Virus record (IMG/VR): IMGVR_UViG_3300025684_000025
Location: 1 to 41,563 of that record
Origin: a virus
Strand: one strand, 5' to 3'
Length of the DNA: 41,563 bases
Below the pieces are notes generated by a model. The model ran no database searches, had not been told where the DNA came from, and worked only from the letters and a program-made list of their open reading frames with translations. The translations under genes and the position numbers were made by a program. Below, one piece after another: positions 2,977 through 28,250 of this stretch (its first letter is position 1; each line of letters opens with the position of its first letter).

Positions 2977-4497
2977 TTAGTTAATTCTATTTTTCTGTGA
3001 AAGGATATTCTGTTTAAAGTTTTGGAACTTATCTTCTAACTTCGCTTTGATGGCTGGTTGTACCACACCAGACTCAGCAGGATTGTGAACGTGACTAACC
3101 ATAAAAAGATACATCACATCTAAAAGTTCCTGAAGTTCTTCACCTCTAACTAATGAATAGGTATTTGGATAAATACTCGTTAGTAGTTCGTCCTGAGTAA
3201 TCTTATAATTCGATACCTTCGAGAAATCAATCCCCTCAGAATTTTCAGGTACATTATTACCGTAAGCAATTAGAAAGTTATTGTCAGAGACTGAGATGAT
3301 ATTTTTAGATGGTTTATCATCTTTTATAATATTTGTTGGTCTAATATATGTTACTTTCTTAGGAGTTTCGTCTTCATCTAAAGAATATACTAACCCATAA
3401 GATTTTCTACTTTTAATTCTAATCTTATCTATAAATCCTGAATAATCAGTATTGGTGATTAAATCATTATATTGTTGTCTAACAGGTCTAAGATATAATG
3501 GATATATTGAGGTCATTTTTGCCGGGTCTTGATTTGAAGGGTGTTTAATAAACCCATCTAATGCGTCAACACCTGACTTACCAGTATTTATAATTCCTTT
3601 AATTGCGTGTCTTATGGACATCCCTAAATCATCTAAAGATGGTTCAAATATTTGTTTGGTATATAATAACTCTTTTTCGTCCAAAACGGTTAAGTTATTA
3701 AAGTATATTGTTTCTGTTTGTCCGTCTTTTTTCAATGGACGATAAACATATATAGTTCCCGTATAATTACCATTTACTGGCGTTAGACTTTCAATGTAGT
3801 ATTCAATTAAAACTTCTAAGTGAGTAAATCTAGTAGTTTCTACAGGTTGTTCGTCACCCTCTTTATATGTGAATGTTTTATCAAACTTAGAAACTTGTAA
3901 AATTGCTGGATTATCATCTCTAATGGGTTCATTTAATTTGGTTGATATTTCATCATCAACTTTACCAGCACGAATAACCACGGCATTATCAGACCATATA
4001 ACATCAGAATTAACTCTACTTGAAATTGCAAAGTCATCAACTTTAGGAATTGCTCCGTTATATTTTTCTTTTACGTACTTACCATTTTCTTTTACTAAGT
4101 CCTTACCTTTTTTGTATTGTAATCCTTCTCTAGATTGTGATAACTTATGTTCGGCACTCGTACTATCATTGAAACCTCTATCTATAACCGATGAAGGAAT
4201 ATAAAACCCATCTACGAAATCTCGGTCAGGGTTAGAAAATATAATATTCACCATGTCTCCCACTTTTGGAATCATAGTAAATAGGTTAGGAATTAACGGT
4301 CTAAATAAGAAAGGATTGACAGAAATATCCCATTTGTCTTTACCTTCTAAATCTACATTACCGTCATATTCTGTTGAGAATTTTTTTGTGGATATAGCAA
4401 AACTTTGTGGGTCAACAATAATACGACCCAGTCTTAATGGGTCTAAATTATCGGTAACAACACCTGTGTAGATTATTCTTTTATCTTCACTATTCAT
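2977..4497 (-). CDS. Baseplate hub/spike protein, gp5-like OB-fold
   Basis: 506 residues (T4 gp5 has 575). The N-terminus reads IIYTGVVTDNLDPLRLGRIIV, the classic opening of the gp5/VgrG OB-fold (GxV.dN.DP...GR), followed by a PKVGDMVNIIF strand typical of the same barrel. Near the C-terminus is the segment VSHVHNPAESGVV, like the SH-H/P motif of phage baseplate OB-fold proteins. I see no lysozyme domain and no obvious long beta-helix repeat, unlike T4 gp5. The protein would sit at the centre of the baseplate under the tail tube. The gene overlaps the next upstream small gene by 8 bases, and a large probable baseplate gene follows it upstream, consistent with one assembly module. Confidence 0.72.
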   Translation of the reverse strand: MNSEDKRIIYTGVVTDNLDPLRLGRIIVDPQSFAISTKKFSTEYDGNVDLEGKDKWDISVNPFLFRPLIPNLFTMIPKVGDMVNIIFSNPDRDFVDGFYIPSSVIDRGFNDSTSAEHKLSQSREGLQYKKGKDLVKENGKYVKEKYNGAIPKVDDFAISSRVNSDVIWSDNAVVIRAGKVDDEISTKLNEPIRDDNPAILQVSKFDKTFTYKEGDEQPVETTRFTHLEVLIEYYIESLTPVNGNYTGTIYVYRPLKKDGQTETIYFNNLTVLDEKELLYTKQIFEPSLDDLGMSIRHAIKGIINTGKSGVDALDGFIKHPSNQDPAKMTSIYPLYLRPVRQQYNDLITNTDYSGFIDKIRIKSRKSYGLVYSLDEDETPKKVTYIRPTNIIKDDKPSKNIISVSDNNFLIAYGNNVPENSEGIDFSKVSNYKITQDELLTSIYPNTYSLVRGEELQELLDVMYLFMVSHVHNPAESGVVQPAIKAKLEDKFQNFKQNILSQKNRIN

Positions 4498-24125: not shown

Positions 24126-24977
24126 TTAAATAAACTTTAGAATGTTCTTAATAATGTCAAAGTTTTCATTTAATGAATCTACCCCTTTTTGATATTTGAT
24201 TCCTAATTTAGAAATAAAGTAAGACCCTTTAAGTGGTTTAGCCGATTTAGAATCTACTAAGATTAATGAGTTTTGTTTTACAAAGGCGATGAAATCTGTT
24301 TTATATTGTTTTGCTGCACCGACACCGTTAATGAAGTGACCATAGTCAGATTCTTTGATATCCGTAAATGGTTTAATTTGAATTGTATACGTTGGTATTG
24401 TAACAACATCTTTGTAGACTACTGCGTCAACACCATTAATCATATCATCGACAACACCTGAACCCCCTACTTTAACAACATTTAAACCATTAAATAGGGG
24501 ACAATCTTTTAGTAGGTTAATACTCTCCTCTTCGGTTTTTTCACCTTTAACTGATGTCCTGTCTATTGTTGGTAATACGATTGACATATAAATTTCACCA
24601 TCCTCAGAAACGATTGAACGGTAATTTTGTCTAAAAAACTGAATGAATGTTGAATATATTAAAGGTAACGGTTGGTTAACGTTAATTCCTGAATATTTTA
24701 ATAATTTAGACATCAAAACAAAGTTTGTATTAATCCTATTAAGTACAGGGTGCCAAACTCCGTCAGTTGTCCACACCCCCGTTTTTACTTTACCCTCAGA
24801 GTCTTTGTCTGTTTTCCATTGGTTTGTTGGTGTATATACGTGTTCTAACACTTTGTTAATAAACACTCTCCAATCACTATTATAACCACTTCCGTAGGTT
24901 TTCATAATAGACTGAGCAGTATCACGATAACTGTCTTTGTAACTACTTTCCGTCAATAACATACTTAATTTTTTCAT
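24126..24977 (-). CDS. Putative PD-(D/E)XK-type nuclease with capsid-targeting-like leader
   Basis: 283 residues. The opening MKKLSMLLTE has the length (10) and the last-three pattern (L-T-E) of the T4 capsid-targeting peptide. The C-terminal half has a restriction-endonuclease-like core: GVDAVVYKD with D184 on one strand, then 15 residues later YTIQIKPF with Q200-I-K202, the D-X(n)-(E/Q)xK active-site pattern in its Q form, followed by a helix GHFINGVGAAKQYK and strands DFIAFVKQNSLILVDS. An upstream acidic residue (E151) could complete the site. The N-terminal half is helical and unrecognised. If packaged, the protein would enter the host with the DNA. The active-site call is from pattern only. 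Confidence 0.58.
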   Translation of the reverse strand: MKKLSMLLTESSYKDSYRDTAQSIMKTYGSGYNSDWRVFINKVLEHVYTPTNQWKTDKDSEGKVKTGVWTTDGVWHPVLNRINTNFVLMSKLLKYSGINVNQPLPLIYSTFIQFFRQNYRSIVSEDGEIYMSIVLPTIDRTSVKGEKTEEESINLLKDCPLFNGLNVVKVGGSGVVDDMINGVDAVVYKDVVTIPTYTIQIKPFTDIKESDYGHFINGVGAAKQYKTDFIAFVKQNSLILVDSKSAKPLKGSYFISKLGIKYQKGVDSLNENFDIIKNILKFI

Positions 24978-25098: not shown

Positions 25099-25860
25099 AT
25101 GACATCAGCAACAGAATTTATATCGGAATACAACGGAAGCAACTCATTTCTTAACTCAGTTAAAAGTGGTTACAGTAAGTATGGTCGTCTTACACCAGCT
25201 CAATCTGCGGCGGTTATCAAAATAGTTAAGTCAATGAAAGAAAAAGTTAAGTCTATGGCTCCGATTGAAGTTCGTAAGAATATCGAACAGATTATGGAGT
25301 ACAAAGGAAATAATAAGTTCATCAAAGACTTACAGGAAAAATACGAAAAGTATGGTAAGTTAACTGAGAAGCAAATCGATGCAGGTCTTAAGTCTATTAA
25401 TCGTAAACCACAGAACACGGTTAAAGAACCGATGAAGCTACCTAAAAACCAAACAATCAGAATCCGTCAGTACATTGCAAAACAAATTAAAGAGGATAAG
25501 GATTTAAACTTCTTACCAATTCAGATTGAGGTTTCTCACCTAATTGGAGCGTCTAGAAAGGCACTACACCTAAGAGGTAAAATGTCTACTGAAGTAACTA
25601 CTGAGTGTCGTTGTTGTGGTAGAGGATTGAAAGACGAGATGTCAATCGCAACGGGAATGGGTAAAACGTGTTCTAAAAATATGGGTGTTGAATACGCAAA
25701 GAATCAATCTGATGTTGATAGATTTAAAGAAGACCTACAGAAAAAAGTTGATGAGGTTGGTGTATTTGACTTTTGGGTTCCTAAGTCTCAGGTTTCAGAA
25801 TGGGATGGGGTGTATAAGTTAGCAGTTAACAGTCAGTTTCAAACTTACGTTAACTCTTAA
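25099..25860 (+). CDS. Zinc-finger protein with two YGxLTxxQ modules
   Basis: 253 residues from the ATG at 25099, chosen because the promoter covers the earlier start. Residues 7-43 and 65-101 are two copies of one small helical module (Y.G.N.F....K..Y.KYG.LT..Q). Residues 138-240 form a second unit, LPIQIEVSHLIGASRKALHLRG ... DFWVPKSQVSEW, with a treble-clef-like insertion carrying Cys170, Cys172, Cys173 and Cys191 (CRCCGRGL, then MGKTC), close to the 'C..CgR.L....S...G.G..C' pattern of DUF6011-type proteins. The SNF2 helicase nearby has the same two N-terminal units without the zinc finger. It has its own host-type promoter inside a block of minus-strand late genes. A nucleic-acid-binding role is inferred. 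Its end overlaps the converging gene by 11 bases. Confidence 0.7.
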   Translation: MTSATEFISEYNGSNSFLNSVKSGYSKYGRLTPAQSAAVIKIVKSMKEKVKSMAPIEVRKNIEQIMEYKGNNKFIKDLQEKYEKYGKLTEKQIDAGLKSINRKPQNTVKEPMKLPKNQTIRIRQYIAKQIKEDKDLNFLPIQIEVSHLIGASRKALHLRGKMSTEVTTECRCCGRGLKDEMSIATGMGKTCSKNMGVEYAKNQSDVDRFKEDLQKKVDEVGVFDFWVPKSQVSEWDGVYKLAVNSQFQTYVNS

Positions 25861-26491
25861 TAGTGATGATTATTTGGTCACCTTCTTTTTTCACTTTGAA
25901 ATTAGGGGGTGATAAATTTTCATAGTACTCTTTATAATAGTCGACTTTTTCATCTTCGTCCATTGTCGTATCTTCCTCTTCCGATTCGTTAAGTGATGAT
26001 TCTATTTTTTTGATGGTAATGTCAGTATCCACAATTTCACTATCCCAAACCTTTTCTTTGACTAGTTCTAACTCATCGTGGTATGTGCCCTCACCCAATA
26101 ATCTATCTTCAACGGAATTACTACTATATCCTTCAACTTCACCACGATATAGGTATGTTCCCGATTCATTGTAACCCGCATTTAACTCTACCTCAAATGT
26201 AAAAAGTTTAGGGTCCTTAATAAAAGTACTATCGGTATGGTTTACTGTTGGTGACTGTAGGAAAGACGCTTCAATCTTATCTCTAATTTCGTGGTACCTG
26301 TCAAATCCAACACTATTGGTGTTAATCCCAAACATCTTTAACGTTTTAGTGATTACCTCAAAATGTTTAGAGTTGTCACCATCATATTTAGAAATCCCCA
26401 TACTACTAAAAACTTTAGATAGGTAAGGAATGACTTTGTCGTATTGAAGGTCATTGATTTCAGATAATATTTTACGTCTAAGACTATTCAT
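25850..26491 (-). CDS. Hypothetical protein with KILSE leader
   Basis: 213 residues, unrecognised. It opens MNSLRRKILSE, an 11-residue basic leader ending in L-S-E, then a helical segment, a beta-rich middle (LFTFEVELNAGYNESGTYLYRGEVEGYSS), an acidic low-complexity stretch (SEEEDTTMDEDEKVD, near residues 168-182) and a final strand unit FKVKKEGDQIIITIKS. A late-type motif ends 5 bases before the ATG. Its stop codon lies inside the converging zinc-finger gene. Possible internal head protein, by the leader only. Confidence 0.57.
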   Translation of the reverse strand: MNSLRRKILSEINDLQYDKVIPYLSKVFSSMGISKYDGDNSKHFEVITKTLKMFGINTNSVGFDRYHEIRDKIEASFLQSPTVNHTDSTFIKDPKLFTFEVELNAGYNESGTYLYRGEVEGYSSNSVEDRLLGEGTYHDELELVKEKVWDSEIVDTDITIKKIESSLNESEEEDTTMDEDEKVDYYKEYYENLSPPNFKVKKEGDQIIITIKS

Positions 26492-26496
26492 AGTTT

Positions 26497-26505
26497 ATAA
26501 ATAGT
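26497..26505 (-). promoter_or_regulatory. Late-promoter motif variant ACTATTTAT
   Basis: ACTATTTAT on the minus strand, 5 bases before the ATG at 26491, abutting the stop codon of the SNF2 helicase gene. Confidence 0.48.
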
Positions 26506-28250
26506 TATTTTTTAAGAATAGATAGTAAATCTTCCATAACTGAAGTTCCCATTTCGTTTTCATTATCCCCCATAACGGTATCGATAACGTTTTTCTTTCT
26601 TTGTAGTATGTCGTAGATTATCATTTCGATAGTGTTTTCAAAAATAGGGTAAAATACCGAAACATTAGATTTTTGTCCGTATCTATAGGCTCTATCTTCG
26701 GCTTGTGAATGGTCAGAAGGTACAAATGATAGGTCATTAAAGATTACAACCTCAGCGGATGTTAAGGTGATACCTACCCCCGCAGCTTTGATATTCCCGA
26801 CAAAGACATCTATTTTATCATCATTTTGAAATTTATCGACAGACTCCTGTCGACTTTGTTTTGTCATTCTTCCGTTTAACATAACAGACCTCTTATTGTA
26901 TTTCCACGCAATTTCTTCTAACGTTGCCGTAAAGTTTGTAAAAACAATTACCTTTTTTCCTTGCTCCAACGCATTGTCTATTAATTCGTAAGTTGAAGGT
27001 AATTTTGATTCTGCAATAATTTGTCGAGCCATCATTAACTTTGAAAGTTTCACAGATAGTGATTTTTTCTCATTTGAATCCTGTTCCCACTCTAAGTAAT
27101 CACCAATTTCTTTTTCATACTCTTTAGATTTTAAATTCAGATATACGGGACTTATAATTTTATCGGGTAAATCTAATATATCTTCTTTCATCCTTCTAAG
27201 TACGTGAGGTTTAACTCTATCTCTAAGTTCTTCTAAATTTGATGCTCCGTTTACGTTCCATACCTTACGTCTACCCGCCATAAATTGATATGCGTCACAA
27301 TATCTTTTAACAAATCCTGCCCAATTAATGGTTAATGGAGAACCTACTAAATGTAGTAAGTTAAAATAGTTAATCGGTCTTGAGGTCATTGGGGTTCCTG
27401 TTAATAACCAAACCTTTCCAACCTGAGAAACTAAGTGGTTAACTAATTGCGTTCTCTTTGCTTGTTTGTTTGAGATATAGTGTGCCTCATCTATTAGAAC
27501 TAAATCAAATCCTTCATCTAAAAATTTAGATTTAAAATCGTCATCACCTCTTTTTGGTATCTCGTGAAAATTCTTAATAATGTCGTAGTTGATGATTACA
27601 AACTTACCATCATCCCATTTTTTACCCTCGACAATACCAACAGATTCGTCAGTGTAGTTTTCAATTTCTCTTTTCCAATTCAGTTTTAAAGATGCTGGAC
27701 ATATGACCAATACTTTTTGTGCTCCACTTTCGATTGATGCGATTACCGCCGATGTGGTTTTACCTAACCCCATATCATCCGCAAGTATGTATTTATCGTT
27801 TGCCAATAATTTTACAATAGCCTCTTTTTGATGTTCCATTGGTGGTCTATGAGAATATGGTTCCCAATCAACCTCAACTTTTCTTTCATTACTCGATAGT
27901 ATGTGAGACTTTGGAACCCATATAAACTCTAAAGGACTTTTATCGATAATTTTACCATATATGTGGTAAGCCTTATCAGTCTGAGTCAATAGTTTCTCAA
28001 TATAGATTGATTTTGGTGATGTTGGTAGTAGCCTCTCTTCTCTTAATTTCTCACCGAAGTAAGGGTCAATATCTACCCACTTACGGGCCACCTTAGGTGT
28101 TTCACCATTGTTCTTTATGATATATTCTGCTTGTGAGCGTGAAGGTTTGTATCCTTTAGTAAAAAAAAGTTTTTCTTTACAGGATAAAATGTAGTTGTTA
28201 CCACCTTCATAAGTTTTTAATATTTCTATAGCCTTTTGCTCAGGAATCAT
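26505..28250 (-). CDS. SNF2-family DNA helicase/translocase
   Basis: 581 residues. ATPase core: MEHQKEAIVKLL (Q-like motif), Walker A DDMGLGKT (158-165), motif Ia VLVICPASLKLNWKREIE, DEAH box at 254-257, LLTGTP at 282-287, and in lobe 2 VGNIKAAGVGITLT and HSQAEDRAYRYGQK (motifs V and VI), the SNF2 hallmark. It is closer to SMARCAL1/HepA-type annealing helicases than to T4 UvsW. The first 120 residues carry one copy of the YxGxN...Y.pS.sQ module (7-46) and the 'KAYHIYGK...FIWVPKSHI' unit (93-117), both shared with the zinc-finger protein next door. Likely job: fork remodelling or recombination in phage replication. No late motif is seen upstream, as expected for a replication gene. Confidence 0.88.
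   Translation of the reverse strand: MIPEQKAIEILKTYEGGNNYILSCKEKLFFTKGYKPSRSQAEYIIKNNGETPKVARKWVDIDPYFGEKLREERLLPTSPKSIYIEKLLTQTDKAYHIYGKIIDKSPLEFIWVPKSHILSSNERKVEVDWEPYSHRPPMEHQKEAIVKLLANDKYILADDMGLGKTTSAVIASIESGAQKVLVICPASLKLNWKREIENYTDESVGIVEGKKWDDGKFVIINYDIIKNFHEIPKRGDDDFKSKFLDEGFDLVLIDEAHYISNKQAKRTQLVNHLVSQVGKVWLLTGTPMTSRPINYFNLLHLVGSPLTINWAGFVKRYCDAYQFMAGRRKVWNVNGASNLEELRDRVKPHVLRRMKEDILDLPDKIISPVYLNLKSKEYEKEIGDYLEWEQDSNEKKSLSVKLSKLMMARQIIAESKLPSTYELIDNALEQGKKVIVFTNFTATLEEIAWKYNKRSVMLNGRMTKQSRQESVDKFQNDDKIDVFVGNIKAAGVGITLTSAEVVIFNDLSFVPSDHSQAEDRAYRYGQKSNVSVFYPIFENTIEMIIYDILQRKKNVIDTVMGDNENEMGTSVMEDLLSILKK

Follow-up and report, generated by a model that had tools for sequence, protein, structure and literature searches.

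In a virus record of 41,563 bases, hereafter the window (the whole stretch of DNA that was analysed), a SNF2-family ATPase/translocase and a zinc-finger (ZF) protein encoded on opposite strands appeared to begin with the same sequence modules. This raises the question of whether the likeness is real and, if so, what it says about the work of the two proteins. The window encodes a tail sheath, a tail tube, a baseplate hub and a head-tail adaptor, that is, T4-like virion genes, and also a B-family DNA polymerase (PolB). By the SNF2 gene, its closest isolate is the cultured Far-T4 reference, Rhodothermus phage RM378 (PMC4360716); by PolB, its closest isolates are Salinibacter phages. Judging from the virion genes and these nearest isolates, the phage, one of a family of uncultured, T4-like phages from water, is probably of the Far-T4 type. 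The features that concern us are listed in Table 1. Positions 24126-24977 encode a protein of a family that matched neither Pfam nor PHROG, which has a conserved QxKPF-like stretch and is perhaps nuclease-like; in a relative (L237, from about position 3947) this family is apparently fused, as judged by eye, to an Fe/Mn superoxide-dismutase-like domain.

Table 1. Genes and protein segments of the SNF2/ZF locus, in window coordinates (H, helix; E, strand; numbers after these letters are residues).
Feature	Coordinates	Strand	Basis and details
Zinc-finger (ZF) protein, 253 aa	25099-25860	+	Translation; DUF6011 E 2.6e-9; AlphaFold pLDDT 82.5
ZF helical repeat 1, residues 4-53	25108-25257	+	SNF2 N-terminal profile match 3-45; hhalign P 8e-5; H4-10, H16-28, H33-53
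ZF helical repeat 2, residues 56-104	25264-25410	+	BLASTP E 4e-5; hhalign P 3.5e-6; H56-66, H73-85, H90-100
ZF module 2, first part, residues 112-162, ending in KA.H..GK	25432-25584	+	SNF2 N-terminal profile match 59-165; E112-122, H124-134, E142-151, E155-162
Insertion within ZF module 2, residues 163-220: DUF6011 treble clef and helix H203-220	25585-25758	+	Pfam match; ligand columns; model
ZF module 2, last part, residues 221-240: FWVPKS strand and next strand	25759-25818	+	SNF2 N-terminal profile match 221-244; hhalign P 1e-4; E223-228, E232-235
213-aa protein, no assigned function	25850-26491	-	One of two inserted genes (the other is ZF) that separate SNF2 from the next gene
SNF2-family ATPase/translocase (P0002), 581 aa	26505-28250	-	SNF2-rel_dom E 3.9e-27; Helicase_C E 1.8e-18
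SNF2 motor, residues 137-575	26526-27842	-	Intact Walker A/B, motif III and motif VI
SNF2 platform module 2, residues 51-120, without zinc finger	27891-28100	-	E53-61, H63-73, E81-90, E94-100, E108-113
SNF2 platform helical unit, residues 3-50	28101-28244	-	H3-13, H19-30, H38-47; kept in all orthologues examined

P0002 belongs to the SNF2 family (SF2), as its SNF2-rel_dom and Helicase_C matches scored 95.5 and 67.2 bits (cut-offs 24.9 and 23.5, respectively). Its motor motifs are invariant in 19 orthologues and its closest solved relative is 1z63. The N-terminal region keeps six residues of module 2 invariant (K93, H96, G99, W111, P113 and K114), and AlphaFold modelled the block of residues 1-110 with a pLDDT of 78-91, against only 73 for the whole model. 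Two relatives (L225 and L226, G068/G067) hold an intein-like insertion of ~370 aa in the SNF2 Walker A motif (DDMGLGK/AEFVE ... VTHN/TTST), and in the jumbo relative L237 a small protein that looks SET-domain-like by eye is encoded directly before the SNF2 gene, from about position 1496.

The ZF protein consists of two helical repeats and a module 2 that bears an inserted DUF6011 treble clef. The match to DUF6011 (PF19474) reached 36.9 bits (family cut-off 26.6) and includes the C-x2-C...G-x-G-x2-C signature by which membership is judged, the cysteines being C170, C173 and C191. The candidate fourth zinc ligand lies at position 194, where 34 of 44 relatives have H; the window protein has N there, and its C172 could substitute. 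Within module 2, K154, K161, W226 and K229 are invariant. The AlphaFold model (mean pLDDT 82.5) comprises two three-helix repeats, then strand-helix-strand-strand, the finger with its helix, and two further strands.

Compared alone by BLASTP, the two proteins matched at E 4e-5 (ZF residues 56-162 against SNF2 residues 2-101). A profile made from 26 diverse SNF2 N-termini, with zero ZF sequences included, gave three colinear matches in the ZF protein (residues 3-45, 59-165 and 221-244) with a total of 39.8 bits, whereas the best of 2,000 shuffled ZF proteins scored 9.5 bits. Conversely, a ZF-only profile gave the SNF2 N-terminus 19.8 bits, compared to 14.9 for the best of 2,000 shuffles. Alignment of the two families by hhalign again returned three colinear blocks (P 3.5e-6, 8e-5 and 1e-4). 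AlphaFold models generated independently from separate alignments presented an identical order of elements in both proteins, a three-helix unit followed by β-α-β-β-β. When the ZF model was searched against BFVD with Foldseek, the matches were gp639 of phage G (E 9e-7) and one SNF2 protein, A0A6J5L5H1 (E 2.2e-5), which is the top BFVD match of the window SNF2 model and is 56% identical to P0002. Pairwise identity is only ~26% and both N-termini are lysine-rich, as would be expected if the likeness were a matter of chance or composition between lysine-rich helices. The shuffle controls, in which 0 of 2,000 sequences reached the real score in either direction, together with the colinear profile and fold matches, rule out such an origin, to which we attach a vanishingly small probability.

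Taken together, the profile comparisons and the predicted models show that the SNF2 ATPase and the ZF protein carry a homologous N-terminal platform, made of a basic three-helix unit followed by a small β-α-β-β-β unit, and that in the ZF variant the helical unit is doubled and the DUF6011 treble clef is set in a loop of the β unit. The shared modules that an earlier note had described from the letters alone are thus real, and their similarity is significant. Its placement of the zinc finger inside module 2 is likewise borne out, both by the models and by the profile blocks, the finger filling precisely the interval that separates the second block from the third. The residue patterns by which the modules had been recognised needed some correction. 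The helical pattern does describe a shared unit, but ZF repeat 2 has Q at the K position and the pattern is not gap-free, since ~3 additional residues separate helices 2 and 3 of the SNF2 unit; similarly, KA.H..GK...FWVPKS marks a shared module, but the SNF2 version reads FIWVPKS. The platform is basic in both families (mean charge +11.3 for the whole ZF protein and +4.8 for the SNF2 N-terminus, compared to +0.5 for the SNF2 motor), with ZF repeat 2 near neutral. It corresponds to no known domain in Pfam, NCBIfam or PDB, its sequence had no match in PDB, and by fold the ZF model had no usable PDB match either (best E 1.1). What is new is an undescribed shared domain, which links a motor of known class to a zinc finger of known family.

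The platform was present in all 80 closest viral orthologues of the SNF2 protein and in at least 587 IMG/VR stretches; it was found neither in the bacterial and archaeal genomes of GTDB nor in 50,697 phage records. The ZF family had at least 154 IMG/VR matches, in records of up to 322 kb. Both are large, virus-only families. The platform SNF2 was encoded in all 14 ZF-bearing records of at least 200 kb, some of which are near-duplicates, and in 3 of the 13 between 100 and 200 kb, which is what fragments would be expected to give because in large relatives the two genes usually lie about 90-130 kb apart. Seeding with SNF2 instead, ZF was found in 2 of 5 records of at least 140 kb (G015 and G089) and was not found in G019 (143 kb), G090 (184 kb) and G022 (229 kb), which are linear and possibly incomplete. 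Hence the co-occurrence anticipated for the two genes holds in one direction: within one viral lineage ZF implies SNF2, but not the converse. Neither of the two outcomes that the earlier note had named as refuting it, an insignificant profile comparison and a lack of co-occurrence in related phages, was seen. Given these three records, either the ZF protein is dispensable or replaceable or the records are incomplete, and since all cases fall within one lineage, shared ancestry alone could produce the co-occurrence.

The closeness of the two genes turned out to be a local event and not a conserved arrangement, because it results from the insertion of two genes in a single clade. At 7 loci, those of the window and of six close relatives, a gap of ~1.5 kb separates SNF2 from the next gene, and the ZF gene and the 213-aa gene occupy it, always together. 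Among five relatives without ZF in which the next gene is recognisable, this gap is 37-47 bp in four and ~1 kb in the fifth. The 213-aa gene, whose product has a weak RNA_pol_L match below the cut-off (E 0.003), is confined, next to SNF2, to the 7 loci where ZF is present as well. Thus, the statement that the genes lie less than 1 kb apart on opposite strands is accurate for the window and its six close relatives (645 bp), but it does not apply to the large relatives, where they are unlinked, and linkage as a general rule is ruled out.

Nor is the platform private to this pair. A helical-unit profile run over 18 records detected the unit in only three protein types, namely ZF, which has it twice, SNF2, which has it once, and, in 3 records, a DHH-phosphoesterase-like protein; a fourth such case, in record G092, brings the latter to 4 records. 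These proteins (L234, that is G015:85000-89500; L108:1950-4196; L235; and L322) have a single helical unit at the C-terminus and no module 2. They carry HxDLDG (HQDLDG) and TDHHD (HTDHHD) motifs, and their Pfam DHH matches are sub-threshold (E 3e-4 and 6e-3). In the L108 protein a SET domain is present in addition (Pfam E 8e-9). The undescribed two-component replication or recombination system proposed in the earlier note is thus supported only in part: the shared, undescribed platform speaks for it, set against a third carrier, a one-sided co-occurrence and genes that are mostly distant. That the platform would target one and the same DNA structure or partner, as the note suggested, is plausible.

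Several known systems resemble the pair in part. The proposed likeness to T4 UvsW, a SF2 helicase of the A18/UvsW family, is that of a single-polypeptide SF2 translocase in a T4-like phage with gp32 and a UvsX-like gene. However, the window motor is of the SNF2 class and matched phrog_62 (E 1.1e-110) far better than phrog_16 (E 1.1e-20), which argues against direct membership of the UvsW family, and for its N-terminal domain a sequence relation to any solved structure was not found. A small trihelical protein, UvsW.1, is a potential partner of UvsW (PMC7824862); the window ZF protein differs from it in its larger size, its treble clef and the platform that it has in common with the motor. The HARP/SMARCAL1-type SNF2 annealing helicases also present a small accessory domain directly before the SNF2 motor, and an N-terminal motif of HARP binds the eukaryotic single-strand-binding protein RPA (PMC3409536). 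P0002 had no HARP match in Pfam at E≤1, which argues against direct membership of this type. Other phage SNF2 helicases (PHROG 62, for example that of RM378) have the same motor, with ~33% identity, but their N-terminus differs from the window platform in all isolates read, RM378 included.

As for the zinc finger, the same treble clef is found in DUF6011 phage proteins such as PHROG 4046, phage G gp639 and WAB25161.1 of Lysinibacillus phage LysYB1. In gp639 and WAB25161.1, as in the ZF protein, a W(I/L)P(K/R) module harbours it, and PHROG 4046 matches the ZF helical repeats and the DUF6011 part; nevertheless, none of the DUF6011 proteins read combines two helical units with module 2, and none was seen to share a domain with a SNF2 enzyme. 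In LysYB1, an unrelated cultured phage, the DUF6011-in-module-2 protein is encoded directly upstream of a SNF2 gene (L096:2938-6292), the product of which lacks this platform. We counted this independent linkage in favour of a joint role. Synechococcus phage Ssp-JY38 (L114:1324-4294) encodes a DUF6011 protein near a SF2-helicase-like gene, all of them annotated as hypothetical.

Nine large relatives provided the replication context. When searched with the UvsW-type profile phrog_16, each gave only a single long SF2-motor match, and this is the platform SNF2. All nine encode gp32, which in the records read is adjoined by a RecA/UvsX-like gene, and no UvsY match above the cut-off was found in them. 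In 8 of the 9, gp32 has an acidic C-terminal tail that ends in (E/D)(E/D)(L/M)PF; the gp32-like proteins L324-L331 show an acidic tail with a final LPF/MPF. Bacterial SSB has a docking tail that resembles this ...LPF/MPF end, and the bacterial proteins RecG and RecJ dock on SSB. T4 UvsW binds the acidic C-terminal tail of gp32 (Perumal et al. 2013, ref. b46 in PMC3778716), and a comparative study proposed that SNF2 enzymes of jumbo phages replace UvsW (PMC7824862).

We consider it fairly probable that in recombination-dependent replication the SNF2 protein would act in place of T4 UvsW, as a fork/branch-remodelling translocase, and that the ZF protein would be an accessory acting on the same substrates. 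The platform may be a recruitment domain that would bring the SNF2 motor, the ZF accessory and, in some phages, a DHH-type enzyme with the helical unit alone to single-strand-coated DNA. As its ligand we tentatively suggest the acidic '...EELPF' tail of the gp32-like single-strand-binding protein, a proposal somewhat less probable than its opposite. Recruitment to gp32-coated DNA is favoured because of the tail itself, the docking of UvsW on gp32 and of RecG and RecJ on SSB, and the presence of a basic module on both the SNF2 and the DHH enzyme. For the explanation as a whole, from the shared platform to the SNF2 remodeller, the ZF accessory and recruitment by the gp32 tail, we judge the chances to be even. 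Weighing against it are the confinement of the co-occurrence to one lineage, the three records with SNF2 but no ZF, the usual distance between the two genes, a basic charge that would suit plain binding of DNA just as well, and the lack of this platform in the LysYB1 SNF2.

Direct binding of DNA by the platform is about equally likely as recruitment by gp32. According to this alternative, the platform would contact single strands, forks or junctions itself, like HARP in the SMARCAL1-type enzymes, and ZF would bind the same structures more strongly and mark or load them. The net positive charge in both families, the invariant lysines and tryptophan of module 2 (K154, K161, W226 and K229 in ZF; K93, W111 and K114 in SNF2), the location directly before the SNF2 motor and the frequent binding of nucleic acid by treble clefs are all consistent with it. 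However, ZF repeat 2 is close to neutral and no DNA-binding fold was recognised, with PDB giving no match by fold or by sequence. Taking all this into account, we regard direct binding as possible rather than probable.

It seems quite unlikely, in turn, that the platforms of ZF and SNF2 bind each other or pair homotypically, ZF being a regulatory subunit or competitor of SNF2. One module does occur in both proteins and is duplicated in the ZF family, and a ZF that implies SNF2 would suit a dedicated accessory, but SNF2 is also found without ZF and the DHH protein carries the helical unit too. A little less improbable, though still unlikely, is that domain shuffling alone spread a generic phage module and that the role of ZF is unrelated (host takeover, transcription or RNA). 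Away from SNF2, isolated phages have related pieces that agree with shuffling: gp639 of Bacillus phage G has module 2 together with DUF6011, and a helical-unit-like stretch is joined to DUF6011 in Pseudomonas phage DRL-P1 (23.4 bits) and, weakly, in Synechococcus phage Ssp-JY38 (7.7 bits). The small number of carriers, three types in 18 records, and the constancy of the ZF-SNF2 pair except in the records lacking ZF point away from it.

The recruitment reading, if correct, would show which proteins cooperate in the replication of a common group of uncultured phages, would give a function to a large ZF family that is so far functionless in annotation, and would add a new kind of accessory domain to the SNF2 motors, whose accessory domains decide their site of action. 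It could also be extended, although we think it rather improbable, to a private docking code in which a phage-only module on SNF2, ZF and the DHH-type enzyme reads the SSB-like tail of gp32; in that case, one gp32 tail would organise a multi-protein recombination/replication machine. Two unannotated domains, present in hundreds of uncultured virus sequences, acquire a joint meaning that can be tested.
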